From: Candidatus Methanoperedens sp.
GTDB taxonomy: Archaea; Halobacteriota; Methanosarcinia; Methanosarcinales; Methanoperedenaceae
NCBI GenBank assembly: GCA_027460525.1
Contig: JAPZAS010000021.1
Span: 1 to 64,000, forward strand
Direction of reading: 5' to 3'
Length of the DNA: 64,000 nt
The notes below the pieces were generated by a model, which made no database searches, was not told the DNA's origin, and was given only the letters and a program-made list of their open reading frames with translations. The position numbers were made by a program, and so were the translations under genes. Below are positions 8,544 to 58,883 of this stretch, one piece after another (positions within the stretch are counted from its first letter, which is position 1; each line of letters begins with the position of its first letter).

Positions 8544-8544
8544 C

Positions 8545-43105: not shown

Positions 43106-43158
43106 GGGGCATTGTCAATCATAATTACTATATACAAAGGCAACCTTTTCAGTTATAA

Positions 43159-43362
43159 ATGAGAGTAAGAGCGATTTACCGGGATAAGATATTGAAACCA
43201 AAGAAGAAATTGGCCCTCGCCGAAGGGGAAGAGGTTACCATAGAAATACGAAAATCCAAAGTTGACAAGCTTGCAGGTCTTCTGGGAGATATAGATATTG
43301 ATTCAGTCGAATTACAGCACAGAACGAAAGAAGTCTGGGCAAAGAAAAGCTTATCTTATTGA
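43159..43362 (+). CDS. AF2212-like (DUF104) antitoxin
   Basis: 67 residues, MRVRAIYRDKILKPKKKLALAEGEEVTIEI, the same family as the orphan at 14.6 kb. A TATA-like actatatacaaa at 43127-43138 gives it its own promoter behind hsdR. The 3' third overlaps the toxin frame by 65 bases. Confidence 0.8.
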   Translation: MRVRAIYRDKILKPKKKLALAEGEEVTIEIRKSKVDKLAGLLGDIDIDSVELQHRTKEVWAKKSLSY

Positions 43363-43759
43363 CACGAATATTTTTCTTGAGCTTCTCCTAAATAGAGCTT
43401 TTAAGAATGATTGTGCTCGACTCCTAAAAGAGGTTGAGATTGGTAACTTAGAGGCTTATGTATCTTCATTTTCCATTCATTCAATAGAAGTTATATTGAG
43501 CAATTTCAATAAACAAAAAGAACTCAAAATATTTTTAAGCAGTATAATAGATTTCGAAGGATTAGCTGTTTATTCAACGAATCTGGAAGAAGAGCTTGAG
43601 GCTATTGAAGAGATGAAAAAAAGTCTGGATTTTGATGATGCACTGCAATCATTTATTGCAAAAAAGCTAAAAGCATCAATAGTCAGCTTTGATAAGCATT
43701 TCGATAAGGTCAAAGGATTGAAAAGGCTTACTCCTGCCGACATATTAAAAACTTTATAA
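43298..43759 (+). CDS. PIN-domain toxin
   Basis: 153 residues from TTG 43298, the only usual start codon ahead of the PIN core; GGGAG is nine bases upstream. AYLIDTNIFLELLLN holds the first Asp, and LDFDDALQSFIAKKLKASIVSFDKHFD the later acidic residues. The first 15 residues overlap the antitoxin gene in another frame. It forms a toxin-antitoxin pair with the upstream gene. Confidence 0.8.
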   Translation: MIQSNYSTERKKSGQRKAYLIDTNIFLELLLNRAFKNDCARLLKEVEIGNLEAYVSSFSIHSIEVILSNFNKQKELKIFLSSIIDFEGLAVYSTNLEEELEAIEEMKKSLDFDDALQSFIAKKLKASIVSFDKHFDKVKGLKRLTPADILKTL

Positions 43760-43767
43760 TGGTGGAT

Positions 43768-43925
43768 TATGGAACCGCAGATGAACGCAGATGAACGCAG
43801 ATTTAATAATCAGGTATCCTCATTCATCCGCGCCTTAAAATCGGTCTTTGCGCCCTCTGCGGTCCTCTGCGGTGAGATTAAAATATGCACCGCAAAAAGA
43901 ACGCGAAGAACGCAAAAGGGGGAGC
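43768..43925. repeat. Dispersed repeats between the PIN toxin and hsdS
   Basis: First gaaccgcagatgaacgcag with a tandem atgaacgcagat (43771-43803), then an inverted pair: ctttgcgccctctgcggtcc with ctgcggtg (43845-43877) against caccgcaaaaagaacgcg with aagaacgcaaaag (43886-43917). Elements of this type are common between genes in Methanosarcinales. They fill the whole gap. Confidence 0.6.
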
Positions 43926-43930
43926 TATAA

Positions 43931-45154
43931 ATGGATGCTCATGAGCGGCATGCGCTGCCGGAGGGGTGGGAATGGAAGAGGCTGGAGGATGTGGCAACCG
44001 TTGGCGCAGGAAATAGCGCGCCTCAAGGTGATGAATTTTTTGTTGACGGCGAATATCCTTTTGTTAGAACGCAAGATGTAGGCAGGGAAAAAGCTACGAT
44101 TTGTTTGATTAATACAACAGACAGGATAAACGAACTTGCCGTAAAAGAGTTTAACCTAAAGCTATGGCCTGCCAAAACGCTTCTTATTCCGAAAAGTGGG
44201 GAATCGACATTCTTGAACCGTCGTGCACTTTTAGGCGTACCGTCATTTGTCTCTTCTCATTTGGCAACAGTAATCGCATGCAATAATTTAGCACCAGAGT
44301 ATCTGTATTTCTGGTCTTTGACTGTTGATGCCAAGAAACTGACTCATGATATCAACTATCCTTCGCTCAGGCTTTCAGAGCTCGAATCTGCTAAAATCCC
44401 CCTCCCCCCTCTCCCAACCCAGCGCCGCATCGTGTCAATCCTTGAGAAAGCCGAGGAGACTACGAGGCTGCGGGCGCAGGCGGATGAGCTTACGGACAGG
44501 CTGCTGCAGAGCGTGTTTCTGGAGATGTTCGGGGACCCGGTGAAGAATTCAATGGGGTGGGAAATTAAAAAGATAGGTAATGTGGCAGAGCATGTTTCCA
44601 GTGGTTCAACGCCAAAAGGTGGTCAAGAAGTTTATCAAGATAATGGGATTCTCTTTATACGAAGCCAAAATGTACATATGAATAAGCTTATTTTAGAGGA
44701 TATAGCGTTCATTTCAGAAGAAATTCATAATGCCATGAAAAGGACATGGGTAAAGAATGGGGATGTTCTTATTAATATTACAGGTGCTTCCATTGGCAGA
44801 GTGACTTGGTTTTCAGGTGAAGATAACTCTGCGAATGTAAATCAGCACGTTTGTATTATTCGACCTGAAAAAAATTCAATACAAACTGAATTCTTATCAT
44901 ATCAGATTTCAATGCCGCATTATCAAAAGAATATAATAGCAAAACAATCAGGTGCAACAAGACAGGCTTTTAATTATTCGCAGATTAAAGATTTTGATAT
45001 TATTGTCCCTCCCATCCCTCTCCAGCAAAAATTTGCCCGCATCGTCGAGAAGGTCGAATCCATGCGCCAAAATCAAAAGCAATCCTACCAACAAATCGAC
45101 TCCCTTTTTAACACGCTTATGCAAAAAGCATTCATGGGGGAGTTGGTAGCGTGA
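43931..45154 (+). CDS. hsdS: Type I restriction-modification specificity subunit
   Basis: 407 residues with the classic two-half design: target-recognition domain 1 (WKRLEDVATVGAGNSAP), a central conserved helix (PLPTQRRIVSILEKAEETTRLRAQ), target-recognition domain 2 (WEIKKIGNVAEHVSSGSTPKGG) and a C-terminal conserved helix (PIPLQQKFARIVEKVESMRQ). Each domain reads half of the bipartite target. The end overlaps the HEPN gene by four bases (GTGA). Confidence 0.95.
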   Translation: MDAHERHALPEGWEWKRLEDVATVGAGNSAPQGDEFFVDGEYPFVRTQDVGREKATICLINTTDRINELAVKEFNLKLWPAKTLLIPKSGESTFLNRRALLGVPSFVSSHLATVIACNNLAPEYLYFWSLTVDAKKLTHDINYPSLRLSELESAKIPLPPLPTQRRIVSILEKAEETTRLRAQADELTDRLLQSVFLEMFGDPVKNSMGWEIKKIGNVAEHVSSGSTPKGGQEVYQDNGILFIRSQNVHMNKLILEDIAFISEEIHNAMKRTWVKNGDVLINITGASIGRVTWFSGEDNSANVNQHVCIIRPEKNSIQTEFLSYQISMPHYQKNIIAKQSGATRQAFNYSQIKDFDIIVPPIPLQQKFARIVEKVESMRQNQKQSYQQIDSLFNTLMQKAFMGELVA

Positions 45155-45903
45155 CAGAAAAAAGGGAACCAAATCTTTGGGATTCATTCACTGCAGAATT
45201 CTGGGCAGAATTATTGGCTGAAGCAATTTCTGATACTTTAAAAACACCAATTCAGAATTTTAAATTTAACATCTTGAAAGCTAAGGCGTTACATGCAACC
45301 GCTATGGAAGTAAGTTATATTTGGGAAAAAATGTTAGAAAAAGTGACAGAAAGCAATGCTGAAATTGTCCTTGTTCTATATTATGTTTATACCGAGCAGG
45401 CGTTAGTCACGGCGGTAAGTGCATCAGAGGTTTATTTCAAAGACAGGCTAGCTTATGCGATTCAAAATGAGAAAAGATTATTAAAACGTTACTTGGATAA
45501 GGAAATCACGGTGAAGAGAATTTTAGATACAGACTTGAATCTATCCGAAGACATTGGAATTTTAATAGTTGAGAACCTGAACCTTCAAATTGAGGAAGTC
45601 CAGAAAGAATACAAAAGAGTGTTTTGTTTTGAACCGTTCACCAAAGACGAATTGAAAAGATTGAAAGAGATTCTCAAAATTCGAAATGTAATTGTTCACA
45701 AATCTGGAATCGTTGACCATTTGTTCGTTTCAGAAACTGAATTAGATTATCAAGTTGGGCAAAGACTCTTTTTTGAACGGGATGAAATACTGGAAATGAT
45801 TGATTTTATTGAAAATATTGTAACCAAAGTTGATTCGGAATTGAATGAGAAATTAAATGTGGAGGACGCATGCGACTCGCCCCTGAACTCAAATCCAAAA
45901 TAG
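45151..45903 (+). CDS. HEPN-domain protein nested in the hsd operon
   Basis: 250 residues, all helical. ASEVYFKDRLAYAI in the middle and RNVIVHKSG with Arg178-x4-His183 give the Rx4-6H signature of HEPN RNases, most like the RiboL-PSP-HEPN type. The GTG start overlaps the hsdS stop, and the 3' end overlaps hsdM by 34 bases, so it is made together with the methylase subunits. HEPN proteins are often RNA-cleaving effectors in defence and toxin systems. The HEPN reading is from motif and helicity only. Confidence 0.65.
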   Translation: MTEKREPNLWDSFTAEFWAELLAEAISDTLKTPIQNFKFNILKAKALHATAMEVSYIWEKMLEKVTESNAEIVLVLYYVYTEQALVTAVSASEVYFKDRLAYAIQNEKRLLKRYLDKEITVKRILDTDLNLSEDIGILIVENLNLQIEEVQKEYKRVFCFEPFTKDELKRLKEILKIRNVIVHKSGIVDHLFVSETELDYQVGQRLFFERDEILEMIDFIENIVTKVDSELNEKLNVEDACDSPLNSNPK

Positions 45904-47378
45904 ACGCCCTCTGGGACAAGTTTTGGAGCGGCGGCTTGTCAAACCCGCTCTCAGCCATCGAGCAGATGTCATACCTGATTTTCATGAAGCGCCTTGAGGA
46001 TATGGACGCGGCAGAGCAGAAAAAGGCGCAGGCTAAGAAGCAGCCCTTTAAATCCGTTTTCGAAGGTCATGAGGATTGCAGGTGGTCGAGCTGGAAGCAC
46101 TATCCGGCTGAAAAGATGCTCATCCATGTGAGGGACGTTGTGTTTCCCTTTATCAAGAACATACACGATGGAGAAAAAACGCTCTTCTCAGAGCACATGA
46201 AGGACGCGGTTTTTATCATCCCCAAGCCCTCGCTTCTTCAGGAAGCGGTTTCCATTCTCGATGACCTGAATATAACAGCGCAGAACAGGGATACGCAGGG
46301 GGACATCTACGAGTACCTCCTCAGCGAGCTTAAGATAGCAGGCAAGAACGGTCAGTTCAGGACGCCAAGACATATAATCGGTATGATTGTGGAGCTTGTG
46401 GACCCCGATATCGGGGACAGGATATGCGACCCTGCATGCGGAACGGCAGGTTTCCTTATCAACGCCTACGAGTACATAATCAGGAAGCATACAAGCCCTG
46501 ATATGGTTCAGGAGGACGATGAAGGGAAATATTATGGGCTGTATGGTGATAAAATAACAGACAAGAACGCATGGACGCTGTTATGGAGTTCTTTCTATGG
46601 ATATGACTTTGAGCCCACGATGGTAAGAATATCCCTCATGAATATGGTGCTTCACGGCATTGCGACTCCTAATATCGAAATGACCGACACCCTATCCAAG
46701 GGATTCACGGAGGAGAACGAATATACGGTAGTGCTTGCCAATCCGCCTTTTAAAGGAAGCATCGACAAGGGCGATATAAACGACCATTTGACAGTCGGCA
46801 CGACAAAGACCGAACTTCTCTTTGTTGAGAGGATGATGAACCTTCTTCAGATTGGAGGAAAATGCGGCGTCATCGTGCCTGATGGGGTGCTGTTCGGGAC
46901 TTCAAATGCGCATAAAAAACTGCGACAGATCCTGCTTGAAAAATGCCAACTTGAAGCTGTAATATCCATGCCTTCCGGGGTTTTCAAGCCGTATGCAGGG
47001 GTTTCAACTGCGGTTCTGGTTTTCATAAAAGGGGATAAGACAGAGAAGGTCTGGTTCTATGATATGGAAGCAGATGGTTATTCGCTGGACGATAAGAGGA
47101 ATTTCATCGATGGGAAAGGAGACCTACCAGATATCATCGAGAGATTCAGAAAGCGATATGAAGAGAACTCTGTGGACAGGAAAGGGAGGTGCTTCTTTGT
47201 TCCGGTTAGCGAGATTAAGGAAAATGGGTATGACCTCTCGATTTCAAAGTACAAAGAGATTGAGTACGAAGAAGTAGCCTATGAAAAACCAGAAGTTATA
47301 ATGGGGAAAATAGAAGGGTTAGAGGAACAGATAAAAGCTAATATTGCTGAATTGGAAATCATGTTGAAGCATGCTTAA
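45870..47378 (+). CDS. hsdM: Type I restriction-modification methyltransferase subunit
   Basis: 502 residues. The N-terminal helical domain (LSAIEQMSYLIFMKRLED) is followed by the SAM-binding DPACGTAGF at 187-195 and the adenine-methylase NPPF at 291-294. GGAGG is four bases upstream of the ATG, inside the HEPN gene. The order hsdR-S-HEPN-M is unusual, as hsdM normally precedes hsdS. Its last 20 bases overlap a convergent gene. Confidence 0.96.
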   Translation: MRLAPELKSKIDALWDKFWSGGLSNPLSAIEQMSYLIFMKRLEDMDAAEQKKAQAKKQPFKSVFEGHEDCRWSSWKHYPAEKMLIHVRDVVFPFIKNIHDGEKTLFSEHMKDAVFIIPKPSLLQEAVSILDDLNITAQNRDTQGDIYEYLLSELKIAGKNGQFRTPRHIIGMIVELVDPDIGDRICDPACGTAGFLINAYEYIIRKHTSPDMVQEDDEGKYYGLYGDKITDKNAWTLLWSSFYGYDFEPTMVRISLMNMVLHGIATPNIEMTDTLSKGFTEENEYTVVLANPPFKGSIDKGDINDHLTVGTTKTELLFVERMMNLLQIGGKCGVIVPDGVLFGTSNAHKKLRQILLEKCQLEAVISMPSGVFKPYAGVSTAVLVFIKGDKTEKVWFYDMEADGYSLDDKRNFIDGKGDLPDIIERFRKRYEENSVDRKGRCFFVPVSEIKENGYDLSISKYKEIEYEEVAYEKPEVIMGKIEGLEEQIKANIAELEIMLKHA

Positions 47379-47826
47379 TTTCCTCAATGCCCGCGCCGCC
47401 TTCCGCGTGCGCCGCCGCATACCTCTCCGTAATCAGCGCGCGCCTGAGCCTGAACAGCACCTTCTGCTTATCAAAACCATACTGCTCCGCAAGCGTCTTG
47501 ACAAGCCTCTTCTTTGAACCGCCTTTCAGGTTCATCTCAGCCATTACAGCGTCCACGAACTCCTTGCCCGGTTCGGCTTCTTTCTTGGCTTCAGCTTTTG
47601 CAGGCTCTGATTTTGCAGCTTCAGGTTTGACTTCAGGCTCTGTCTCTGTTTTAACTTCGGCTGTTGGCACCTCAGGCTTTACTCTGGCTACCTCTTTTAC
47701 TGCTTCGGCTTTCTGAACCTGCGACGGCGCTTTAACTGCCACAGCATTTTTCGCCTCTGGTTTTACAAGCCCTATCAGTGTTGCCTTCGCTGCTTCCTTA
47801 ACCGCTTTTTCTTCAGCCATTGCCAT
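47359..47826 (-). CDS. Ala/Lys/Glu/Pro-rich protein at the end of the Hdr operon
   Basis: About 155 residues. The first 85 are a low-complexity linker of Ala, Lys, Glu, Pro and Val (KPEVPTAEVKTETEPEVKPE). The last 65 form a compact domain (GKEFVDAVMAEMNLKGGSKK, then LAEQYGFDKQKVLFRLRRAL). Its start overlaps the stop of the FdhA-like gene (TGATG). It has no cofactor motif. Translational coupling suggests an assembly or tethering role for the Hdr complex; I do not recognise the family. Confidence 0.65.
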   Translation of the reverse strand: MAMAEEKAVKEAAKATLIGLVKPEAKNAVAVKAPSQVQKAEAVKEVARVKPEVPTAEVKTETEPEVKPEAAKSEPAKAEAKKEAEPGKEFVDAVMAEMNLKGGSKKRLVKTLAEQYGFDKQKVLFRLRRALITERYAAAHAEGGAGIEEIKHAST

Positions 47827-49295
47827 CACCTCGATACCTGAACAGGCGTAATAGTTCCTTTCTCTATCCCGAACTTCCTGCCTGTGAGCAGTACATTATC
47901 CTGCACAGGCGCCACTTTGAACTTCTTTTCAATCACGCTTCCATTTGACTTTATCTTGAGCGTCCCGCCTTTTAAGAGCTTGAGCGCCCTGACCGTATTC
48001 AGGTTCAGCTCCACGAAGTCGTTGTCGTCAGGCAAGCCGTACCACATGAACGGGTTGTACACGCTCACAAGCGCAGTTTTGGCTTCAGCCTGTTTCTGCG
48101 CAGCCTGTATCGCGCCGTAAGGCGGTCTTTCGTATTTCGGTATCGTGAATTCATCAACTGCAGCTATGCCGAGCGCCTTTTTCACGGATTCGTGAAGGGC
48201 ATCGTACTCGAACCTGGTGCCTGCAATAATTCCAAGCGCCTCAAGTCCGTTTGTCCCCGCGCCGCCCAGAGCCGCCGCCCGCCCCTCATTGTTGATGAGC
48301 GTGCCCTTCTTTTTGTAGAGAGGCTCGTGGGCTATCACGATGTTCGCTTTAGTTGTGAGCGCGCTTGCCCTGCCGGTCTGGACTATCAGGTTGGTGAGTT
48401 TCCCGAGCGTCTCCTGCGGGATTAACTCGCCCGGGTATGATTCAAGACAGAACAGTGTTTTTATCGTTCCTTTATTAATATCCTCAATAAGCTGCCCCAG
48501 CGACTTCTGTTTTGCATCCTTTGAAAGAATATACGCGCCCGTTGAATTTGCAAAAGGCTTAAGGAAAGTTATTCTTGCGCCATTGTTTTTCGCAAGAGAA
48601 AGTATGCTTTTAACCTGCTCCACATCAGAAAGCGGATGGAAATCAGAAATAACAAGCGAATCCTTTGTGAGCTGAAGTTTTGAAATATCAGAAGGTCTTA
48701 TATTCCCATCAGCCAAAGGCAAGTCCTTCCACCATACAGAGGTTATTTTTGCTCCTTTCTTTTTGGCTGAAAGCAGGCGCCTTACGATAAGTGGATACTG
48801 CTCGTAGGGGTCGATGAATAAAACAATATGTTTTGCTGCCTCGATTTCACCGTATGGTATTCCAACACTCAGGGTCTGGTAAGTATCCTTTGGAAGCGCT
48901 TCAAAATCAACGCCTGTGTATAATGTGCCGAAAGATTCAGCAAGTTTCCGGAACGCAAGGAGTTCCTCGCATGTGGTGTTGCCGAAGGAGAGAAAAGCCA
49001 CAGAACCTTTGCCGGCTGAAATCCTCTTGGCTGCCTCTTTAGTAGCTTCCTCAAAAGCTGTCTCCTTGCCATCTACAATAGACTTCACAGGCGTGTAGAG
49101 GCGTGGAAGGCTCATCCCGAACCTGCACAGCTTCCCTGCATTAGAAGGAGAGGATTTCCTGAAATCCACTTCGAGTCTTTCATTCTTTGATGAACCAAAT
49201 GTTATCTGTTCTTTTTTGACGGTTTCATCAAACTCGCGAATGTATAACCCGCAGCCGAAGTTGCATCCGGGGCAAATGGTCGAATAAACGTTCAT
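47826..49295 (-). CDS. Molybdopterin-oxidoreductase-like (FdhA/NuoG-type) iron-sulfur protein
   Basis: 489 residues. CPGCNFGC (Cys8, Cys11, Cys15) plus Cys57 bind a 4Fe-4S cluster as in formate dehydrogenase alpha. The core has FLSFGNTTCEELLAFRKLA, and NNEGRAAALGG resembles NuoG. I see no Cys or in-frame TGA (Sec) where FDH has its catalytic residue, and the residues after Cys57 are Arg-Phe instead of Leu-Lys. It is also shorter than FdhA. It therefore is probably an electron-transfer subunit. Separated by three bases from the FrhB/FdhB gene. Confidence 0.75.
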   Translation of the reverse strand: MNVYSTICPGCNFGCGLYIREFDETVKKEQITFGSSKNERLEVDFRKSSPSNAGKLCRFGMSLPRLYTPVKSIVDGKETAFEEATKEAAKRISAGKGSVAFLSFGNTTCEELLAFRKLAESFGTLYTGVDFEALPKDTYQTLSVGIPYGEIEAAKHIVLFIDPYEQYPLIVRRLLSAKKKGAKITSVWWKDLPLADGNIRPSDISKLQLTKDSLVISDFHPLSDVEQVKSILSLAKNNGARITFLKPFANSTGAYILSKDAKQKSLGQLIEDINKGTIKTLFCLESYPGELIPQETLGKLTNLIVQTGRASALTTKANIVIAHEPLYKKKGTLINNEGRAAALGGAGTNGLEALGIIAGTRFEYDALHESVKKALGIAAVDEFTIPKYERPPYGAIQAAQKQAEAKTALVSVYNPFMWYGLPDDNDFVELNLNTVRALKLLKGGTLKIKSNGSVIEKKFKVAPVQDNVLLTGRKFGIEKGTITPVQVSR

Positions 49296-49298
49296 AAC

Positions 49299-50450
49299 TC
49301 ATACCTCCAGCTTTGCTTCAAAGTATGGCGGTTTTCGCAAATCCATCCCGGGCTCGTACTTCAACTCCTCCTGCACAGGGTTTGCAATTCTCCTGTAAAG
49401 CCTCGTGAGCGGGATATCCACAGGGCACACGTCGCTGCACTGTCCGCATCCGATGCACGAGTCTGCAAGATGCAGAAATCGAACTAAATGATACATGGAC
49501 ATCCTGTAAGAGTCTCCACGCATGTGGAACTCGGTGCATTTTGAAACATCGCCGCACGAGCAGGTAGGGCACACAGCCTTGCATGCGCCGCAGTCTATGC
49601 AGTGCTCAAGCTCTTTCCTGAAATACTCAAGCCTGTTATCAACAGGAACGAACACTTTTTCCTTCCATTTCTTGCTCATGCCTTCCATGGCACTTTTTAT
49701 CTTAGCCCGCCCCGCAATCCCTTTCTCATCAGGTTTCTGAATTTGAATATATCCGGCATCAATGGCATTCTGCAGGAGCTTTGCGCCTTTATCTGAATTG
49801 ATTTCCACAAAGGTGGCTTTGCCTGCAAGCTCTCCTGTTACGCCCCAGTTCCCGCATGCAAGGTCGGCATTACTGGGTATCTTGATGGTGCAGTATCTGC
49901 AGCTCTCACGCCTTCCGTACCCTTTTTCCTCAAGCTCATCGATGGTAATGGCATGCTCTTTCCCATCCTTTGTCTCGAAGATGAGTTTTCCTTTTTCGAT
50001 TTCTTCCCCGTGCACGTCCTCTGGTTTGATCTTGTACATGACCTCAAGCATCTCTCGCGTCGTAACAGGATGCATCGATCCGCCGCAGTTCAATCCAACG
50101 ATATACGTGTTATCAAGGTTTACAGCGTTGCGCTTTGCCTGCTCGATGATCCCGCGCACATCGCATCCCTTCGCAGGAAGAGCGACTTTGAGGTTCCTAT
50201 TTGTGATGAGTTTTGCAAAGTTGCTCGGCACCGAATGTAAGGAGCCTGCGGAATTCAACACTTCATTCACATCAGAGGTTATTATAGGTACAGCCTCGAA
50301 CTCATTAACTTTCTTTAGCACAACAACGGCATCAACCAGCTTCTTTTCAAGCGCTGCTGCAAGCATTGATGTCACAAGACCTCCTGAGCCGCCGCGCTTC
50401 CTCACATCCTCTTTGGTTGACCAGCCCACGAACATCTCACCCTTCTGCAT
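49299..50450 (-). CDS. Coenzyme F420 dehydrogenase beta-type subunit (FrhB/FdhB/FpoF family)
   Basis: About 383 residues. RGGSGGLVTSMLAAALEKKLVDAVVVL is the FrhB/FdhB start, ALPAKGCDVRGIIEQAKRN and CRYCTIKIPSNADLACGNWGV the conserved core that binds FAD and a cluster, and the C-terminus adds two ferredoxin motifs (CIDCGACKAVCP, CIGCGQCSDVCP). The family exchanges hydride between F420 and FAD. The extra ferredoxin part would pass electrons to the neighbouring MvhD/HdrA. The ATG overlaps the MvhD stop (TGATG). Confidence 0.9.
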   Translation of the reverse strand: MQKGEMFVGWSTKEDVRKRGGSGGLVTSMLAAALEKKLVDAVVVLKKVNEFEAVPIITSDVNEVLNSAGSLHSVPSNFAKLITNRNLKVALPAKGCDVRGIIEQAKRNAVNLDNTYIVGLNCGGSMHPVTTREMLEVMYKIKPEDVHGEEIEKGKLIFETKDGKEHAITIDELEEKGYGRRESCRYCTIKIPSNADLACGNWGVTGELAGKATFVEINSDKGAKLLQNAIDAGYIQIQKPDEKGIAGRAKIKSAMEGMSKKWKEKVFVPVDNRLEYFRKELEHCIDCGACKAVCPTCSCGDVSKCTEFHMRGDSYRMSMYHLVRFLHLADSCIGCGQCSDVCPVDIPLTRLYRRIANPVQEELKYEPGMDLRKPPYFEAKLEV

Positions 50451-50902
50451 CAAACCACCCCCTCGGGCTTCAGGGGACTCGGTCCCAGCTTCTTAATCTG
50501 CTCTGTGACACCGCGGATGAAATTAGCAAACTTCTCTCCCTCGCTTGCCGATATCCAGTTAAGCTGCAGCCGTTCCTTTTCAAGTCCAAGCTCTCTGACC
50601 ACGTTTTCGAGGAACCTGTATTTGATCTTTGTCTTATCGTTTCCGTTGACATAGTGGCAGTCCCCTATGTGACAGCCTGTGACCAATACTGCGTCTGCCC
50701 CTTCAAGGAAGGCGTTGAACACATGCAGGGGGTCTATCCTTCCTGAACACATCACGCGGATTATCCTTGCCGTAGGCGGCTGCTGGAACCTCCCCATGCC
50801 AGCGCTGTCCGCGCCGCCGTAGGAACACCAGTTGCAGCAGAACGCCACAATCTTGGGCTCCCATCCGTTGCCAGCCTGCGCAGGCTTGGTTTCAGTGCTC
50901 AT
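50450..50902 (-). CDS. mvhD: MvhD-type hydrogenase/Hdr delta subunit (copy 2)
   Basis: 150 residues from MSTETKPAQ at 50902. IVAFCCNWCSYGGADSAG, MCSGRIDP and TGCHIGDCHY supply the cysteines of the MvhD [2Fe-2S] cluster. MvhD wires an electron donor to HdrA. It overlaps hdrA (copy 2) by four bases. About half identical to the copy at 52.9 kb, so hdrA-mvhD is a duplicated pair. Confidence 0.92.
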   Translation of the reverse strand: MSTETKPAQAGNGWEPKIVAFCCNWCSYGGADSAGMGRFQQPPTARIIRVMCSGRIDPLHVFNAFLEGADAVLVTGCHIGDCHYVNGNDKTKIKYRFLENVVRELGLEKERLQLNWISASEGEKFANFIRGVTEQIKKLGPSPLKPEGVV

Positions 50903-52881
50903 GCCGCTACCTCCCGGAACCTGAACACGTTCTTCACCTGCGCCAGAACTTGCGAGTTCTTGAAGTGGCTCTGCTCCAGTGCACCTGTTGGGCAGGCAGT
51001 GACGCATGTACCGCAGCCTTTACACAGCGCCTTCATCACATTTGCCCTGCCTTCTTTCTCATCCATCTTTATAGCCTGGAAAGGGCACATGGGTATGCAC
51101 ACGCCGCATCCCACGCATACATCAGGATTCACCACAGCGGTTATACCCTCGGTGATGGCTTTTTTATTTATAAGAAGAATCGTGGCGCGGCTTGCGCATG
51201 CACTCCCCTGCGAAACGGCATAGGGAATGTCCTTGGGACCTGATGCTGCGCCAGCCAGGAATACGCCGTCTATGGTAGTATCCACAGGTCTGAGCTTGGG
51301 GTGCGCTTCCATGAGCAGGCCGTCAGCCGCCTTTGATAATTTGAGGAGCTGCTGTATCTGGTTAATGCCCTCATGCGGGACAATGCCAGTTGCAAGAACC
51401 AGAAGATCAAATTCAAGATTCCTTATCTCATTGGCGAGTGTATCCTCGACCCGCACCTTGATATTCTTGGTAACAGGGTCTTCCTTCACGTCAACAGGTC
51501 TTCCGCGCAGGAACTTCACGCCCAGGTTTCGCGACCTGTTATAGCTCTCTTCATATCCCCGAAACGGTGTCCTGATATCGATATACATTATCGTCTGGTC
51601 TGTCTCCGGGCGCTTTTCCTTTAGAAGCTGCGCATTTTTTATGGTGACCATGCAACATACACCAGAGCAGTAAATATTAGTATTTTTATCGCGGGAGCCA
51701 ACGCAGTTCACGAATCCAACTCTTATGGGTTCTTTGCAATCCGAAGGTCTTACAACATGCCCGCCCGTGGGCCCTGCGGCATTGAGCAATCGTTCAAATT
51801 CCATGGCTGTTATGACATTATCGTATAAACCATAGCCATAGTCATGCCTTGGCTCAGGGTCGTAGGTCTTGAAACCCACTGCGCCGATGATGACGCCCAC
51901 ATTGATATCGCTGTAAGAGGTCTCCTGGTCATAATTAATCGCCTGGCTTGCGCATGCTTTGACGCAGGCTTTGCAGTTGATGCAGTTCTCCTTGTCCAGT
52001 ACTGCCCGCAACGGCACAGCCTGCGGGAACGGCACGTATATCGCCTTGCGTGTCCCGAATCCCTCGTTAAAATCATATGGAACTTCAACAGGGCAAACCT
52101 CGCTGCATTTGGCGCAGCCGGTGCATTTGGTAATATCGAGATGCCTTGGTTTATGCTCGATCTTGACGTTGAAGTTGCCGACATAACCATCCACTGCTTT
52201 TACCTCTGAATAGCTCATTATCTTGATATTCTTGTTCCTTGCCACTTCCACCATCTTGGGACCAAGTATGCAGATGGAGCAGTCGTTCGTGGGGAAGACT
52301 TTATCGAACCTCGCCATCCTGCCCCCGATGGATGGCTCCTTCTCAACGAGATAGACCTGGAATCCCATATCAGCAAGATCCAGCGCAGCCTGCATTCCCG
52401 CAACGCCGGCTCCAACAACAAGAGCCTTATCAGTCACAGGCACCTCGCTTGCCTGCAGGGGTTCAAGCAACTTTCCGCGCTCAATACCCATCCTTATGAG
52501 GTCTTTTGCCTTTTCGGTGGCTTTCTCCTTCTCCCACATGTGGATCCATGAGCAGTGATCCCTTATATTTACGAATTCAAGGAAGTACTGGTTCAAGCCC
52601 ATCTGCTCGATGCAAGCCCTGAATGTGGGCTCATGGGTCTTGGGAGAGCATGCAGCCACAACAACACGGTTGAGGTTGTGTTCTTTGATCTTTTGCTGTA
52701 TGTCAGCCTGACCTGAATCAGAGCATGTGAACTTATTTACGGATGTGACCTTTACCCCTGGCAAAGTGGATGCATACTCAACAACTGCCTTTGTATCCAC
52801 CACACCTCCGATATTCACGCCGCACTCGCATACAAAGACGCCCACCCGTTTTTCTTCCTGATTATCCTTTGCTTCGCTCAT
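50899..52881 (-). CDS. hdrA: Heterodisulfide reductase subunit A (copy 2)
   Basis: 660 residues, the usual complete HdrA. GVFVCECGVNIGGVVDT is the N-terminal domain, VVGAGVAGMQAALDLADMGFQVYLVEKEPSIGGRM binds the bifurcating FAD, and four ferredoxin motifs follow: CTGCAKCSEVCP, CINCKACVKAC, CVGCGVCIPMCP and CKGCGTCVTACP. HdrA splits electron pairs between ferredoxin and heterodisulfide. It abuts the upstream mvhD (one base) and overlaps the downstream one. Confidence 0.96.
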   Translation of the reverse strand: MSEAKDNQEEKRVGVFVCECGVNIGGVVDTKAVVEYASTLPGVKVTSVNKFTCSDSGQADIQQKIKEHNLNRVVVAACSPKTHEPTFRACIEQMGLNQYFLEFVNIRDHCSWIHMWEKEKATEKAKDLIRMGIERGKLLEPLQASEVPVTDKALVVGAGVAGMQAALDLADMGFQVYLVEKEPSIGGRMARFDKVFPTNDCSICILGPKMVEVARNKNIKIMSYSEVKAVDGYVGNFNVKIEHKPRHLDITKCTGCAKCSEVCPVEVPYDFNEGFGTRKAIYVPFPQAVPLRAVLDKENCINCKACVKACASQAINYDQETSYSDINVGVIIGAVGFKTYDPEPRHDYGYGLYDNVITAMEFERLLNAAGPTGGHVVRPSDCKEPIRVGFVNCVGSRDKNTNIYCSGVCCMVTIKNAQLLKEKRPETDQTIMYIDIRTPFRGYEESYNRSRNLGVKFLRGRPVDVKEDPVTKNIKVRVEDTLANEIRNLEFDLLVLATGIVPHEGINQIQQLLKLSKAADGLLMEAHPKLRPVDTTIDGVFLAGAASGPKDIPYAVSQGSACASRATILLINKKAITEGITAVVNPDVCVGCGVCIPMCPFQAIKMDEKEGRANVMKALCKGCGTCVTACPTGALEQSHFKNSQVLAQVKNVFRFREVAA

Positions 52882-53295
52882 CTATTTCACTTCCTTCACC
52901 GGGTTTTGACCCAATTTCTTAATCTCTTCTGTAAAATCTCGAATAACTTCTGAAAATCGCGCACCTTCACTTGCTGATATCCACTCAAGCCGGAGCCTCT
53001 TATCAAGCCCGAGCTTTGCAAGTGCTTTTTTAGTGTTATTAATCCTGACCTCTGCGTTCTTATTGCCGTCGATGTAATGGCAGTCCCCTATGTGGCAACC
53101 CGCAATCAGCACGCCGTCCGCACCGTCCTTCAGGGCTTTCAGGATAAATGCTGGTTCAACCCTGCTTGAACACATCACCCTCAAGACCTTAACGCTCGGC
53201 GGGTACTGGAAGCGGCTCACGCCTGCAAGGTCTGCGCCTGCGTATGAACACCAGTTGCAGCAGAATGCAAGTATGTTGGGTTCAAATTCGCTCAT
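52882..53295 (-). CDS. mvhD: MvhD-type hydrogenase/Hdr delta subunit (copy 1)
   Basis: 137 residues. ILAFCCNWCSYAGADLAG, MCSSRVEP and AGCHIGDCHY carry the [2Fe-2S] cysteines. It overlaps the double HdrA by four bases, so each HdrA in the operon has its own MvhD. Confidence 0.92.
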   Translation of the reverse strand: MSEFEPNILAFCCNWCSYAGADLAGVSRFQYPPSVKVLRVMCSSRVEPAFILKALKDGADGVLIAGCHIGDCHYIDGNKNAEVRINNTKKALAKLGLDKRLRLEWISASEGARFSEVIRDFTEEIKKLGQNPVKEVK

Positions 53296-56200
53296 ACCAC
53301 TACCTCCACCACGCCCGTCTCAATCGAAATACTCCTCACACCTTTATTAAAAGCATCGATTGCCTCTCCTATCTCCTTTGATGAGAAATGCTGGGCTTTT
53401 ATCGCTCCGGCAGGGCAGGCAGCTGCACATGAACCGCATCCTTTGCATGCGGCGGGATTGATGCGTGACTTCCTTGCCTTGTAGGTGACTTCTTCTGCTG
53501 TGACTGTTACTTCAGAAAGCAAAGGTGCATTGTACGGGCATACGGTGGCGCATGTCCCGCAGCCTATGCATCGTGCTTCATCCACTACCGATATTGCACC
53601 TTCGGTCTCGATGAATTTGCGGGACAATATGGTACATGCACGCGAAGCTGCTGCGCTTGCCTGCGATATGGCTTCCTCCATGAGCTTTGGCGCCTGCGCA
53701 CTTCCGCACAGGAACACCCCATCCGTGGCGAAATCCACAGGTCGAAGCTTGGGATGTGCCTCGAGGAAGAATTTGTTCCTGTCAAGCGGTATCTTGAAGA
53801 GCTGGTTTGTCTCTTCATTCTCTCCTGCCACCAATGGCGTGCTCAGCACGACAAGGTCTGAAGATATCTCGATATCCTCGTTGAGCATGGCATCATGGAC
53901 TGTAACTTTACCCTCCTGTACCGTGGGCGGTTTTTCGGCATCGTATCTGATGAATATTACTCCAAGTTCCCTTGCCTTCTCGTACAGTTTCTCAAGCACT
54001 CCATACGTCCTCATGTCGCGGTATAAAACAAAAACATTCGAGCTGTTATTTCCCTTCTTAATCCTTATGGCGTTCTTGACCGCATCCACACAGCATGTCC
54101 TCCCGCAGTATTCCCGCTCTTTATTCCTTGCCCCGACGCACTGTATCATCGTTATATTATTAGCGCTGATGCCACTGCCCAGCATTTTTTCAAGCTGAGC
54201 CTGCGTTATCACACCTGGGTCTTTTCCATAGTTGAATAGTCCTGAAGGTTCAAAGTTCCGTGCGCCCGTAGCCACCACCGCCGCGCCGAAATCCACAGGT
54301 ATCTCTTTTCCATTTGACTTGACAGCACCTTTAAAATTGCCGAGATAACCTTCCACTTTGATGAGTTTTGCCTCGTTTATGACTTTGATATTTTTATTTT
54401 CATGTACCCTGAGGATGAGGTCTTTCAATACATCCGAAGGCTTCTTTCCGTCGTATAATTCCGTCATTTCCCTGAGCATCCCTCCGAGTTCTTTTTCCTT
54501 CTCGACAAGGGTAACAGGATAACCGTTATTTGCAATATCAAGGGCAGCGGTCATTCCTGCCACGCCGCCGCCGAGTACCAGTGCCTTGTTGATCAGGGAT
54601 ACTTTTTGCTTGTATAGGGGCTGGAAAAGAGCCGATTTAGCCACAGCCATTTGCACGATTGCCTTGGCTTTTTCAGTGGCTTTCTCCTTTTCCTTCATAT
54701 GTACCCAGGAACAGTGCTCACGGATATTGGCAAGCTCGAAAAGATACGGGTTAAGCCCGGCTTCGCGGCAGGTATTCTGGAATAAAGGCTCATGGGTGCG
54801 CGGTGTACATGATGCAACCACCACTCGGTTCAGGTTATTCTTGGCAATGGCGGCTTTTATCGCCACCTGCGAGTCAGAGGAGCAGGCATACAGCATCTCC
54901 TGGGCATGTGCAACATTGGGCAGGGTCTTAGCATATTCAACCACCCCAGGAACATTGACCACGCTGCCTATGTTTATCCCGCAGTGGCACACAAACACGC
55001 CTATGCTTGGCTCCATGGAGATCGGCTTCTCCTCTGGGAACTTCCTCTCTTTTATCAATGTTCCCCTCTCCCCTGATAAGAGCGCAGCAGCCTTTGAAGC
55101 TGCAGCACTTGCCTGCGCCACGGTATCGGGTATGTCCTTTGGCCCCTGTGCCACGCCGCATACATAGATCCCGGCAACACTGGTCTCAACAGGGTTCTCG
55201 ATACATGTGGCGATATTTCCGAATTCATTGAGAGCAATGCCAGAAGATTCGGCTATCCTCCTTGTGGAATCCGAGGGGTCAAGTCCTATGGAAAGTATGA
55301 CCATGTCAAAGGCTTCTGTCCTGAGTTTTCCGGAATTGAAATCCTCGTATTTAAGTGCGAGAGCGTTCTTCGAGTCCACATTCACTTCGGGGGGGCGCGA
55401 GTTGATGTATTTGATGCCGTACTCCTTCTGTGCCCTGTTATAGAACTCCTCAAAATTCTTGCCGAATGCCCTTATATCAATGTGGAATATGGTAATATCA
55501 AGCTCGGAGTCGTGCTCTTTTGCAATCATTGATTCTTTGGTGGCATACATGCAGCACACTGAAGAGCAGTGTTTCCTGTTGATTCGCGGGTTGCGTGAAC
55601 CAACGCACTGGATAAAAGCTATTTTCTTTGGAACCTTGCCGTCTGACTGCCTTGTGACATGTCCCTGCGTCGGGCCGCTTGCGCTTAAGAGCCTCTCGAA
55701 CTGGAGCGATGTAATGACATCAGGGTGGTCGAACCTGTACTGCTTGAGAATGGATGGGTCAAAAGGTTTGAAGCCCGTGGCGAGGACCACAGAACCCACA
55801 TTCAGCTCGATCTCCTTGTCTTTCTGCTCATAATCCACGGCTTTGGGTCCGCATACTTTCTTACATACGCCGCACTTTCCTTTTGTGAGATATAAACAAT
55901 GAGCGGAATCTATCGTTGCGACACGAGGGATTGCCTGTGCAAATGGAATGTAGATGGATTTGCGTTTGCTCATGCCGGCATTGTATTCATCCGGAACTTT
56001 TGAGGGGCATTTTTCTGTACAGTTGCCGCAGCCCGTACATTTTGTATCATCCACGTAGCGTGCTTTTTTTACCACATTTACCTTGAAATCCCCGGCTTTC
56101 CCCGTTATGGATTTGACATCGCTGTAAGAGAGTAATTCAATATTCGGATGCCGTCCTGTTTCCACAAGTTTTGGCGACAGGATGCACATGGCGCAGTCGT

Positions 56201-56351
56201 TGGTGGGGAAGGTCTTGTCCAGCTGCGACATCACCCCGCCGATGCTCGGTCTTGATTCTATGAGATAAGTCTTGAATCCGCTGTCAGCAAGGTCAAGCGC
56301 AGCCTGTATTCCGGCTATCCCGCCTCCGACGACTGCGACCGAGCCAATCAT
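53292..56351 (-). CDS. hdrA: Double-length HdrA fusion
   Basis: 1,019 residues made of two HdrA units. Unit 1 (about 1-445) starts directly with the FAD motif VVGGGIAGIQAALDLAD, has the inserted ferredoxin CTGCGNCTEKCP (105-116) and a second Cys group at 152-167, but lacks both the N-terminal domain and the C-terminal ferredoxin. Unit 2 (about 449-1,019) has the N-terminal GVFVCHCGINIGSV, its own FAD motif GGGVAGMTAALDIAN (594-), and the C-terminal CIGCGTCATVCP and CKGCGSCAAACP, but lacks the inserted ferredoxin. The two halves are thus complementary in clusters. Each has a FAD site, so two flavins per chain are expected. It overlaps hdrB and mvhD by four bases. Confidence 0.93.
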   Translation of the reverse strand: MIGSVAVVGGGIAGIQAALDLADSGFKTYLIESRPSIGGVMSQLDKTFPTNDCAMCILSPKLVETGRHPNIELLSYSDVKSITGKAGDFKVNVVKKARYVDDTKCTGCGNCTEKCPSKVPDEYNAGMSKRKSIYIPFAQAIPRVATIDSAHCLYLTKGKCGVCKKVCGPKAVDYEQKDKEIELNVGSVVLATGFKPFDPSILKQYRFDHPDVITSLQFERLLSASGPTQGHVTRQSDGKVPKKIAFIQCVGSRNPRINRKHCSSVCCMYATKESMIAKEHDSELDITIFHIDIRAFGKNFEEFYNRAQKEYGIKYINSRPPEVNVDSKNALALKYEDFNSGKLRTEAFDMVILSIGLDPSDSTRRIAESSGIALNEFGNIATCIENPVETSVAGIYVCGVAQGPKDIPDTVAQASAAASKAAALLSGERGTLIKERKFPEEKPISMEPSIGVFVCHCGINIGSVVNVPGVVEYAKTLPNVAHAQEMLYACSSDSQVAIKAAIAKNNLNRVVVASCTPRTHEPLFQNTCREAGLNPYLFELANIREHCSWVHMKEKEKATEKAKAIVQMAVAKSALFQPLYKQKVSLINKALVLGGGVAGMTAALDIANNGYPVTLVEKEKELGGMLREMTELYDGKKPSDVLKDLILRVHENKNIKVINEAKLIKVEGYLGNFKGAVKSNGKEIPVDFGAAVVATGARNFEPSGLFNYGKDPGVITQAQLEKMLGSGISANNITMIQCVGARNKEREYCGRTCCVDAVKNAIRIKKGNNSSNVFVLYRDMRTYGVLEKLYEKARELGVIFIRYDAEKPPTVQEGKVTVHDAMLNEDIEISSDLVVLSTPLVAGENEETNQLFKIPLDRNKFFLEAHPKLRPVDFATDGVFLCGSAQAPKLMEEAISQASAAASRACTILSRKFIETEGAISVVDEARCIGCGTCATVCPYNAPLLSEVTVTAEEVTYKARKSRINPAACKGCGSCAAACPAGAIKAQHFSSKEIGEAIDAFNKGVRSISIETGVVEVVV

Positions 56352-57286
56352 TTTGCCACCTCTTTTTCTGTTTCTTCTTCTACCTTATTTTCAACTTTAA
56401 TTTCCACTTTTTTCTCTTCCGGTTTTGTTTTGCCGATTAATTCTATAAGCTCTGCAGGAGAAACCATGTTCTTATCAAGCTCAAGCTCCTTCTCGCTCAA
56501 ACCCATGGCAAGGCCGATAAGCTGGGTAAAATAAAGTACAGGTAAATCGATTTTGGTATTGACCGCCTTCTCAATCATCGACTGCTGTCCGTCAAGCAGC
56601 ATATGGCACATGGGACATGCAACCACGATGACGTCTGCCCCAACCGCTTTTGCTTCATCGAACAGCTTCTTTGTGAGTAAAAATGCATAGTCCTGTTTGC
56701 TCATCAGGAGATTTCCCCCGCAGCATTTTGTCTTCTGGGTAAAAGGCAGGCATTCTGCGCCTGTGGCTTTTATGAGGTTATCAAGAGATGTGGGATTTTC
56801 GGGATTATCGAATTTACTCACTTCGGAAGGACGGACAAGGAGACATCCGTAATAAGGAACGGCTTTAATACCCTTCAATGGTTTTATGAATTTCTTCGCC
56901 AGAGCATCTGTTCCCACATTATTTACCATGACATCCAGAAGATGCTTGATTTTAACACCATTGTATTTTTGTCCAAGCGCCTTTTCAATCCTTGCCCTGA
57001 AAGCCTGGTCGGTTTTCATGGCTTTATCGGCTCTTGAAAGATTATGCGAGCAGATACTGCATGGTATCACAAGGTCAAGCCCGGTTTCCTGCGCAAGCAT
57101 GTTATTCCTTGCAGATAAGCCCATGGATAATTCCTTATCGAAGATTGCTTCGAGTGCACCGCAGCAGTTCCAGTCTGGAATCTCTGTAAGTTCGATGCCT
57201 GAAGCTTTGCATACCGCTTTTGTGGAGGCGTCGTATTCGCGAGCAGTTCCGTGGAGGGTACAGCCGGGGTAATAAGCGAGTTTCAT
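56348..57286 (-). CDS. hdrB: Heterodisulfide reductase subunit B
   Basis: 312 residues with two CCG domains: WNCCGALEA with the downstream CSICSHN, and KTKCCGGNLL with CPMCHMLL. These bind the non-cubane 4Fe-4S clusters that reduce the CoM-S-S-CoB disulfide. The C-terminal 35 residues are an added Lys/Glu/Val-rich tail (KKVEIKVENKVEEETEKE) like the linker in the gene at 47.4 kb. It overlaps hdrC and hdrA by four bases. Confidence 0.94.
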   Translation of the reverse strand: MKLAYYPGCTLHGTAREYDASTKAVCKASGIELTEIPDWNCCGALEAIFDKELSMGLSARNNMLAQETGLDLVIPCSICSHNLSRADKAMKTDQAFRARIEKALGQKYNGVKIKHLLDVMVNNVGTDALAKKFIKPLKGIKAVPYYGCLLVRPSEVSKFDNPENPTSLDNLIKATGAECLPFTQKTKCCGGNLLMSKQDYAFLLTKKLFDEAKAVGADVIVVACPMCHMLLDGQQSMIEKAVNTKIDLPVLYFTQLIGLAMGLSEKELELDKNMVSPAELIELIGKTKPEEKKVEIKVENKVEEETEKEVAK

Positions 57287-57849
57287 TTTTCCACCTCTTC
57301 GAAGATGCTCTTTATCTGATCGGTGCCTTTGATTTTATGGGGCAGGATGCTGAGTTTTCCTTTCTTGAATAATTCAAGCCCCATCGGTGCGTAATCAAGT
57401 GCTCCTTTCAGACCTTTTGTCTTTAGCATGAAGCTTCCGCTCACGCCGGCTTCATACCACCTGCCGTTCTTCTTTACCGAATCAATGAAAAGGTTATCAA
57501 AAAGAGGCTTTGGATTGTTAAGCTTGAGCTTCCCGGCTTTTGCCTCGCGCTGTGCTATTGCGCGGATAGCTCCCATGACTTCAGTGATTTTCACATCCTG
57601 CGGGCATCGCTCATAACATATATAGCAGGAAGCGCACAGCCAGAGAGAGTCGTCTGTCAGCACTTCATTGCGCATTCCAAGCAGGGCTTTTCTGATGATC
57701 TTTCGAGGGTTATATACGCTGTCTATCTCGGTGACAGGGCATCCTACGGTGCATCCCGTGCAGTTAAAACAGCGCTTGATGTTTTCGCCGCCCGGCTCGT
57801 TTGCGATCTCGTATTTGAAATTAGGGTCAAGCTCGCTTGTTTTGATCAT
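57283..57849 (-). CDS. hdrC: Heterodisulfide reductase subunit C
   Basis: 188 residues with two ferredoxin motifs, CFNCTGCTVGCPV and CASCYICYERCPQDV, of the HdrC type. It carries electrons from HdrA to HdrB. The family context AKRK-like helices VMGAIRAIAQREAKAGKL follow. It overlaps the neighbours by four bases. Confidence 0.94.
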   Translation of the reverse strand: MIKTSELDPNFKYEIANEPGGENIKRCFNCTGCTVGCPVTEIDSVYNPRKIIRKALLGMRNEVLTDDSLWLCASCYICYERCPQDVKITEVMGAIRAIAQREAKAGKLKLNNPKPLFDNLFIDSVKKNGRWYEAGVSGSFMLKTKGLKGALDYAPMGLELFKKGKLSILPHKIKGTDQIKSIFEEVEK

Positions 57850-58883
57850 TTGCCCGCCTCCATTTGCCGCGCAAGGAATACGCTGAGGTCAACCACATCA
57901 AAATCATACTTCTTTACTGCATCTTTTTCATTCTTCAGGCAGTTAAAATGCGCAAGGCATTTTGGGCAGGTGGTTATCAATGTTTTAGCACCTGTCGCCT
58001 GGGCTTCATCCATCCTGGCTATACGCAGGGCTTTTGTCTGCTCATTGCAGTTCATGAAACTGCTTACCCCGCAGCACAGGGCTTTTTCTCTCGAGTGTTC
58101 CATCTCCCTAAGGCCGGCGCCGTTGGAGGTGAGAGCCTTCCGCGGAGCGTCGTATATCCCCATGTGCCTTCCAAGCCTGCAGGGATCATGATATGTAACC
58201 TCTGCGTTTACCTTCAATCCGAGTTTGTCCAGGAGTTCTGAGATGTGGAGCACCTTGATCCCGAGATCGTAATCCTTTGAAAAGGTACGGTAACATTCTG
58301 CGCAACTGGTAACAAGGGTTTCGATGCCGCTGTTTTTTATGTAATTAGTATTGTAATTTTTAAGTTTTTCAAAAACATCCTTTTTACCCTGCCAGAGCAC
58401 ATCATGACCGCAGCATTTCATTTGCATAATCTGGGGTTTTATGCCGATTCTGTCAAGAAGCTTGAGGGATGATGTGGTGATTTCCCCGAAATCGGTTTTG
58501 ACATCGTGCAAGAATAAACCCAGCGAGTCCACGCATCCCGGGAAATAGCCGTACTTCGAATCAGCTGATTTCTCGATAATGTTTCCATCAAGCCTTGAAC
58601 TCAATTCCGCAAGTTCCGTGAAAACGCCAAGATGTGCAATCTCAAGCGGCTGTTTTCCAGTCCTCTCTTCTTTTATAAAACTTAAGAAATCCACCTGCTG
58701 GGGACACTCCTGGGGACATAAGCCGCATGTAAGGCATGTCCAGATGTCTTTTGTATCAAGCCCGTACACATTGGAATTATAAATAGAACTGCGCGGGGAT
58801 GTTTTTGAGACTCGGCGCATCGGGCAAATAGATGTGCATTTACCGCACTGATAACAGGTTTGTACGTTACTCGTTGTACCCAT
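57846..58883 (-). CDS. HdrD-like protein (HdrC-HdrB fusion)
   Basis: 345 residues. An N-terminal double ferredoxin (CYQCGKCTSICPM, CLTCGLCPQECPQQ) is fused to two CCG domains (MKCCGHDVLWQG with CAECYRTF, and ALCCGVSSFMNCNEQ with CPKCLAHF). This is the HdrD/GlpC-like layout, without a haem partner nearby. First gene of the ten-gene operon. It may act as a second disulfide-reducing site or as electron carrier next to HdrBC. The 125-base gap upstream (58884-59008) shows only a purine-rich caaggaaaa before the ATG. Confidence 0.9.
   Translation of the reverse strand: MGTTSNVQTCYQCGKCTSICPMRRVSKTSPRSSIYNSNVYGLDTKDIWTCLTCGLCPQECPQQVDFLSFIKEERTGKQPLEIAHLGVFTELAELSSRLDGNIIEKSADSKYGYFPGCVDSLGLFLHDVKTDFGEITTSSLKLLDRIGIKPQIMQMKCCGHDVLWQGKKDVFEKLKNYNTNYIKNSGIETLVTSCAECYRTFSKDYDLGIKVLHISELLDKLGLKVNAEVTYHDPCRLGRHMGIYDAPRKALTSNGAGLREMEHSREKALCCGVSSFMNCNEQTKALRIARMDEAQATGAKTLITTCPKCLAHFNCLKNEKDAVKKYDFDVVDLSVFLARQMEAGK

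Follow-up and report, generated by a model that had tools for sequence, protein, structure and literature searches.

A ten-gene operon of Candidatus Methanoperedens predicted to encode a hydrogenase-free F420-ferredoxin-heterodisulfide enzyme with two HdrABC-like cores

The operon and its host

The window analysed here is a stretch of 64,000 nucleotides (nt) from contig JAPZAS010000021.1 (assembly GCA_027460525.1) of Candidatus Methanoperedens, a member of the anaerobic methanotrophic archaea (ANME-2d). Ten open reading frames (ORFs), running from 58883 down to 47359 on the minus strand, encode homologues of heterodisulfide reductase (Hdr), MvhD and F420-dependent formate dehydrogenase subunits, together with a small protein that we call gene 10. 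We propose, with a probability of roughly 0.6, that this operon specifies a soluble, hydrogenase-free, flavin-based bifurcating or confurcating enzyme connecting coenzyme F420 with ferredoxin and the heterodisulfide CoM-S-S-CoB and containing two HdrABC-like cores. The proposal draws on features that the sequence shows: the subunits, their cofactor residues, the loss of a molybdenum (Mo) ligand, the gene order and its modularity. The genes are listed below in the order 5' to 3', with domain content assigned by comparison with Pfam, NCBIfam and PDB sequences.

57846-58883, minus: hdrD-like, 345 residues; HdrC-type 2x[4Fe-4S] fused to two CCG (HdrB-type) domains
57283-57849, minus: hdrC, 188 residues; 2x[4Fe-4S]
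56348-57286, minus: hdrB, 312 residues; two CCG motifs, non-cubane [4Fe-4S], putative heterodisulfide site
53292-56351, minus: double hdrA (type II), 1019 residues; two flavin adenine dinucleotide (FAD) halves
52882-53295, minus: mvhD1, 137 residues; [2Fe-2S], separate clade
50899-52881, minus: single full-length hdrA (type I), 660 residues; Glu363/Lys415, Cys204
50450-50902, minus: mvhD2, 150 residues; FdhB-adjacent MvhD lineage
49299-50453, minus: frhB/fdhB, 384 residues; F420/FAD subunit with iron-sulfur (Fe-S) clusters
47826-49295, minus: fdhA-like, 489 residues; N-terminal [4Fe-4S] kept, Mo/tungsten (W)-ligand Cys lost
47359-47829, minus: gene 10, 156 residues; Ala/Lys/Glu-rich N-terminal tail and a helical domain of about 60 residues (residues ~86-145)

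A preliminary description of this DNA had spoken of a gap-free ten-gene operon, and all ten ORFs are found exactly where it placed them. From the 5' end, four overlaps of 4 nt are followed by the abutting pair mvhD1/hdrA (52882/52881), two further 4-nt overlaps, a 3-nt gap between fdhB and fdhA (49296-49298) and a last 4-nt overlap, giving seven overlaps, one abutment and one gap. The start of mvhD2 is at 50902, overlapping the hdrA stop by 4 nt, and not at the upstream in-frame ATG at 51007. The identities given earlier to the first nine gene products, from the HdrD-like to the FdhA-like protein, are upheld by the database comparisons.

The host genome (2.44 Mb, 99.5% complete) encodes methyl-coenzyme M reductase; elsewhere in it lie hdrE-hdrD and two HdrA genes besides those of the operon. 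The claim that the cluster has no hydrogenase can be extended to the entire genome for [NiFe] enzymes: no catalytic subunit was detected, the sole PF00374 match (27 bits) being a 532-residue ORF without the NiFe cysteine motifs. This large-subunit-like ORF (C16:67794; L060:751-2349, minus strand) has RVSGDNS and DPSFCNW in place of the metal motifs and perhaps belongs to a hydrogenase-related complex without NiFe.

Cofactor sites of the Hdr subunits

All Fe-S cysteines are retained in the operon. The Glu and Lys of the N5-FAD site that mark bifurcating HdrA proteins (E356/K409 of M. thermolithotrophicus HdrA; PMC12054007) occur at all three HdrA FAD sites of the window, one in the single HdrA and one in each half of the double HdrA. 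Among relatives, the pair of the single HdrA is kept in 46/47 sequences and that of the N-terminal half of the double HdrA (E219/K272) in 40/40; in the C-terminal half, E721 is found in 35/40 and K759 in 37/40, the exceptions being Methanimicrococcus and Methanofrustulum. The two halves are complementary: the first has the Cys197-type ligand and an inserted ferredoxin domain without the N-terminal Fe-S domain, and the second has the N-terminal Fe-S domain and a C-terminal ferredoxin domain without Cys197. At two loci (L006:3929-6988 and L029:3963-7037) the double HdrA reads as two ORFs, perhaps through a frameshift or an assembly error.

Four flavins are thus predicted, namely three HdrA FADs and that of FdhB, which makes precise the earlier "at least three". 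The two postulated disulfide-type sites are likewise substantiated, with both CCG motifs complete in HdrB (cysteines conserved in 43-44/44 sequences) and in the HdrD-like protein, which has two [4Fe-4S] clusters in addition and keeps its CCG cysteines in 24/24. Both HdrA-MvhD pairs described previously exist; they are not, however, equivalent. MvhD1 forms one clade (support 100/99), apart from every FdhB-adjacent MvhD whichever type of HdrA is present, and it follows that the FdhB-adjacent MvhD goes with the F420 arm. MvhD1, apparently recognised here for the first time as a clade of its own, is a distinct component that goes with the double HdrA of the ten-gene form and may bridge the two cores.

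The F420 arm

FdhB is full length, with the F420/FAD domain and Fe-S clusters that characterise F420-dependent formate dehydrogenases. It is close to the solved F420-FdhB/ElpB chains 7bkb_E (6e-98) and 8rvu_E (5e-91), and its 16 cysteines are kept in 71-72/72 sequences. The FdhA-like protein retains invariant N-terminal [4Fe-4S] cysteines (C8, C11, C15 and C57). At the column of the FwdB Mo/W-ligand Cys, all 58 sequences have Phe, Tyr, Leu or Val, and Cys occurs in 0/58. A few residues past this column, ANME-2c, other ANME-2, ANME-3 and most Methanolobus-like sequences still have a Cys-His pair, which occurs in 0/28 Methanoperedenaceae (both copies of strain BLZ2 included) and is also absent from the Methanosarcina group, GoM-Arc1 and ANME-1. 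A second alignment of this loop placed the gaps elsewhere, so that single columns depend on the alignment; the absence of any cysteine from residues 110-282 of the window protein does not. Pfam recognises the Fe4S4 domain only, and the score against TIGR01591 is 31.9 bits (cut-off 666), the Cys or selenocysteine Mo/W ligand of a bis-PGD-binding formate dehydrogenase being missing.

The AlphaFold model of the FdhA-like protein (predicted local distance difference test score, pLDDT, 84; predicted template modelling score, pTM, 0.86) matches NuoG, formate dehydrogenases and ElpA over its full length, and ElpA is its neighbour in both sequence and structure. NuoG is a member of the FdhA-type fold without a working Mo site. 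The same holds for ElpA (PMC12350162). Because the Mo/W-ligand Cys is lost, we regard the FdhA-like protein of this lineage as a predicted scaffold devoid of molybdenum cofactor, not a formate or Mo catalyst, and formate as an unlikely substrate. The homology to FdhA stated in the preliminary description stands, and formate or Mo catalysis is predicted to be impossible in the Methanoperedens lineage, which removes one published reading. The ligand Cys of this homologue is retained according to Chadwick 2022 (PMC9012536) and absent according to Lyu 2025 (PMC12054007); the lineage-dependent Cys-His remnant may explain this conflict. That the window's lineage has lost both candidate Mo ligands is apparently a new observation. 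No relatives of the FdhA-like protein were found on viral contigs, and a search of plasmids returned distant bacterial HdrA alone.

Gene 10

No significant match to gene 10 was found in Pfam, NCBIfam or PDB; resemblances to linker histone (best E 0.014), DEK or SAP domains are weak and not significant. Profile searches define a conserved helical domain of ~60 residues, (F)VDE.M...LKGASKKRLIKFLG..Y.WDKQKV.FRLKRALIAERYA, to which an Ala/Lys/Glu-rich tail is added in Methanoperedens. Its AlphaFold model is moderately confident (pLDDT 73, pTM 0.39). The gene is present in 70/238 genomes of the class, nearly all full-length cases lying directly 3' of fdhA-like. Among named loci whose downstream sequence extends for 250 nt or more, it accompanies all 43 in which a single HdrA precedes FdhBA and none of the 13 with a double HdrA only. 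It would thus be a small subunit dedicated to attaching the F420 arm to the single HdrA, and the family is apparently new and undescribed. Fusions of gene 10 to longer FdhA proteins were not detected by the profile search. It also follows fdhA in some ANME-1 loci; at L134:9921-11474 and L132:3527-5083, MvhD-FdhB-FdhA-gene 10 occurs with no HdrA found in the neighbourhood. In the window, the C-terminal end of gene 10 differs from those of its relatives, and it overlaps hsdM tail to tail by 20 nt (47359-47378).

Modules and a QmoC-swapped variant

The gene order is kept in relatives, and the ANME origin suggested earlier is confirmed. The complete order recurs in ~16 named Methanoperedens loci and in five loci of other ANME-2 and ANME-3-like lineages (L099, L101, L104, L106 and L119), a recurrence that excludes chance. 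The operon looks like the join of two five-gene modules, A (HdrD-HdrC-HdrB-double HdrA-MvhD1) and B (HdrA-MvhD2-FdhB-FdhA-gene 10), since these occur apart in ANME-2c and partly in other lineages. Here ANME-2c denotes family f4 (L118, 'ANME-2c-GOS'; L095 and L108, listed under Methanogasteraceae), and f3 the other ANME-2. In Methanosarcina, Methanimicrococcus, GoM-Arc1 and JdFR-19, HdrCB is combined with double HdrA and MvhD-FdhB-FdhA, and gene 10 is missing. One Methanoperedens locus, L015 (L071), carries a divergent HdrC-HdrB-double HdrA cassette (56, 50 and 64% identity) between standard flanks.

In three Methanoperedens loci (L009/L069, L011/L087 and L020/L082), an ORF of 369-374 residues replaces hdrC-hdrB inside an otherwise standard ten-gene cluster:

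L009:3382-4491, plus: QmoC-like ORF
L011:2433-3542, plus: QmoC-like ORF
L020:2485-3609, plus: QmoC-like ORF

The ORF, translationally coupled to HdrD, combines HdrC-type Fe-S motifs with about five hydrophobic helices. It matches the QmoC model NF038018 with E values of 1e-56 to 1e-58 (191-197 bits, under the 300-bit equivalog cut-off); reading the 369-residue form as an HdrC-HdrB fusion is wrong. The adjoining double HdrA keeps all catalytic residues and forms its own clade on a long stem, and the HdrD, MvhD1, HdrA, MvhD2, FdhB and FdhA-like proteins are 72-92% identical to those of the window. The variant loci fall at no fewer than two positions (at least two) among standard ones in the FdhB tree, which suggests repeated cassette exchange. 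Genes of the hdrB type occur elsewhere at 51-52% identity in at least two of the three variant genomes, and more distant ones in all three. Within the class, full-length QmoC-like homologues are confined to these three genomes; the nearest others (44-48%) belong to one family of the same phylum, apparently similar to Archaeoglobaceae, and lie beside separate HdrA pairs and MvhD. At L166:8815-13609, from this other family, two separate HdrA genes (431 and 651 residues) and MvhD come after a QmoC-like gene, in a split counterpart of the double HdrA module. No paper in the literature searched mentions Methanoperedens together with QmoC, and this swapped, probably membrane-linked form appears to be undescribed so far. 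It may link the complex to menaquinone. That the system is a modular, exchangeable machine, in which the QmoC form is a membrane F420-ferredoxin-menaquinone-thiol enzyme and gene 10 holds the F420 arm on the single HdrA, is a joint proposal to which we give slightly less than even odds.

Proposed mechanism

Methane biogeochemistry has yet to explain how ANME, with neither hydrogenase nor Rnf, re-oxidise ferredoxin and the CoM/CoB thiols, and the Methanoperedens models in print depend on the enzyme discussed here. We infer a physical complex, and with it the direction, the serial or parallel flow of electrons and the pairing of disulfide sites with FADs, along the following lines. Core 1 would consist of HdrCB with a self-dimerising double HdrA, and core 2 of the single HdrA together with HdrD, HdrCB or both. 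A single F420 arm (FdhB, FdhA-like, MvhD2 and gene 10) would feed this two-core enzyme. FdhB would exchange hydride with F420, and electrons would pass through Fe-S clusters and MvhD2 to an HdrA FAD, where they would be split to, or merged from, CoM-S-S-CoB (at HdrB/HdrD) and ferredoxin (at the HdrA ferredoxin domains). During methane oxidation the net reaction would most likely be Fd(red) + CoM-SH + CoB-SH -> 2 F420H2 (Fd, ferredoxin), with F420H2 passing into Fqo. In the QmoC form, the swapped half would send its high-potential branch to menaquinone and not to CoM-S-S-CoB.

Methane oxidation makes ferredoxin and thiols 1:1, and 1:1 confurcation is favoured for the standard form for this reason. 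From standard potentials quoted in papers, and for the standard state only, the conversion of Fd and one thiol pair into 2 F420H2 is near equilibrium, at +15 or -12 kJ/mol for a heterodisulfide E0' of -143 or -281 mV, respectively. With menaquinone as the high-potential partner, confurcation costs +27 kJ/mol, whereas bifurcation to ferredoxin driven by F420H2 is favourable; we consider bifurcation the likelier direction for the QmoC form.

Several observations weigh against a single soluble two-core enzyme. ANME-2c have module B alone or divergent from module A (L097), and Methanolobus has HdrCB with module B, a single core. The single-core forms in Methanolobus and Methanosarcina mean that one complex is not required. 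Two cores exceed the need of 1:1 confurcation, the QmoC variant sits uneasily with a soluble enzyme confined to thiol confurcation, and no type II HdrA has any biochemistry according to PMC12054007. The preliminary description's soluble complex coupling F420, ferredoxin and heterodisulfide in reverse methanogenesis agrees with published proposals as to its role (PMC4683180, PMC9012536 and PMC12054007); its being one large complex is not required, the two five-gene halves being separate or divergent in ANME-2c and Methanolobus having one core only.

Modules A and B could instead each assemble independently, as two enzymes encoded in one operon. Their divergent or unlinked state in ANME-2c would be expected, as would the occurrence of module B with its own HdrCB alone in Methanolobus, the distinct clades of MvhD1 and MvhD2, and the exchange of the HdrCB/HdrA part of module A with module B untouched. 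However, the ten genes are strictly translationally coupled in several lineages, module A has no electron-input subunit beside MvhD1, and the only disulfide subunit that module B could count as its own in the ten-gene form would be HdrD; we consider this arrangement unlikely, if worth keeping in view. A little less probable to us is the reductive serial double bifurcation of Lyu 2025 (PMC12054007), 4 F420H2 + 3 CoM-S-S-CoB -> Fd(red) + 3 thiol pairs, in which electrons of F420H2 undergo a first split and the second HdrA splits the low-potential product once more, to give a very low-potential ferredoxin. This scheme accounts for the two cores, the extra MvhD1 clade and HdrD. At the revised heterodisulfide potential of -281 mV one stage reaches ~ -439 mV only and two stages ~ -597 mV, and the QmoC variant, with menaquinone as high-potential acceptor, favours the reductive direction. 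Yet its 1:3 ratio of ferredoxin to thiol pairs is unbalanced with the 1:1 of methane oxidation, which already supplies ferredoxin, and run backwards toward F420H2 it is uphill under standard conditions (+99 or +19 kJ/mol at -143 or -281 mV).

A genuine formate dehydrogenase-Hdr complex, producing or consuming formate as PMC13079737 implies for the BLZ2 cluster, finds encouragement in the FdhA/FdhB homology, in the induction of fdhA and hdr genes with formation of formate by BLZ2 under CO (PMC13079737), and in the Cys-His pair that persists in ANME-2c, other ANME-2, ANME-3 and Methanolobus. We judge it very improbable: neither a Cys at the FwdB position nor the Cys-His remnant exists in any of the 28 Methanoperedenaceae, BLZ2 copies included, and the window protein has its Cys-free stretch and its lone Fe4S4 domain. 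For the favoured F420-ferredoxin-heterodisulfide enzyme, concrete handles on assembly and direction come from gene 10, from the separate MvhD1 clade and from the QmoC-swapped form as a natural variant.

Surroundings of the operon

Type I restriction-modification genes (40259-47378; hsdR 40259, hsdS 43931, hsdM 45870) abut the operon. At 6841-11621, fwdDBAC-like genes are followed by a multihaem cytochrome c ORF (11019-11621). Positions 1 to ~2780 have a G+C fraction of ~0.60 (~0.45 elsewhere) and bacterial-looking YqeY and HEAT ORFs, and a nucleotidyltransferase ORF (2606-3574) changes character near 2780; this is probably a chimeric contig end.

Comparison with known systems

The cluster type is already published, and its detection here is a correct rediscovery. 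Arshad 2015 proposed F420/ferredoxin/thiol confurcation for an HdrABC-FrhB cluster in ANME-2d (PMC4683180); Chadwick 2022 reported that clusters of HdrA2/HdrA3 with FdhAB-like genes occur across ANME and that the fused HdrA shows the complementary Cys197/N-terminal-domain pattern, with question marks on unannotated conserved genes in the supplementary figures (PMC9012536); and a 2026 paper on strain BLZ2 places hdr beside fdhAB on the chromosome and on a mobile element, with HdrABC drawn as producing formate (PMC13079737). Lyu 2025 defined a type II HdrA-Molybdop-FdhB cluster, expanded by type I HdrA and HdrD, with two serial bifurcations (PMC12054007). The window has the same genes and arrangement: an HdrA with two thioredoxin-reductase/FAD domains (1019 residues, both Glu/Lys pairs), adjacent HdrBC, MvhD, FdhB and a Molybdop protein without the Mo/W-ligand Cys, plus type I HdrA and HdrD. 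It shares with that type the F420 subunit and the Mo-less FdhA homologue, and an F420-linked bi/confurcating activity is hypothesised for both. Gene 10, the MvhD1/MvhD2 split and the QmoC-swapped form are not described in the available text of Arshad, Chadwick and Lyu.

The Qmo system resembles the three variant loci only, through the HdrC-like Fe-S domain fused to hydrophobic helices and adjoining HdrA; unlike Qmo, the variant is coupled to MvhD, HdrD and the F420 arm, and the QmoC-like gene is not in the window. HdrABC-MvhADG and Fdh-Hdr-Fmd (PDB 5odc and 7bkb) share the HdrA, HdrB, HdrC and MvhD folds and cofactor residues, but the window lacks MvhA/G and an active FdhA, and HdrA in those complexes is single and a symmetric homodimer. 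The closest precedent for the F420 arm is Elp-Hdr of Methanothermobacter marburgensis, which has been purified, solved by cryo-electron microscopy (PDB 8rvu/8rvv/8rvy) and found to have F420H2-dependent Hdr activity (PMC12350162), and on this account our reading of the arm is strongly supported. By gene content and sequence the operon has the same set, an FdhB-type F420 subunit, a Mo-less FdhA homologue and an MvhD homologue, which in Elp-Hdr sit on HdrABC, and likewise no hydrogenase. Elp-Hdr differs in having one HdrABC core per half, and no double HdrA, HdrD or gene 10 is reported in the available text. ElpA, with ~340 residues, lacks the whole Mo-binding domain, whereas the FdhA-like protein of the window (489 residues) has kept a full-length fold like that of formate dehydrogenase and NuoG and has lost the ligand residue.

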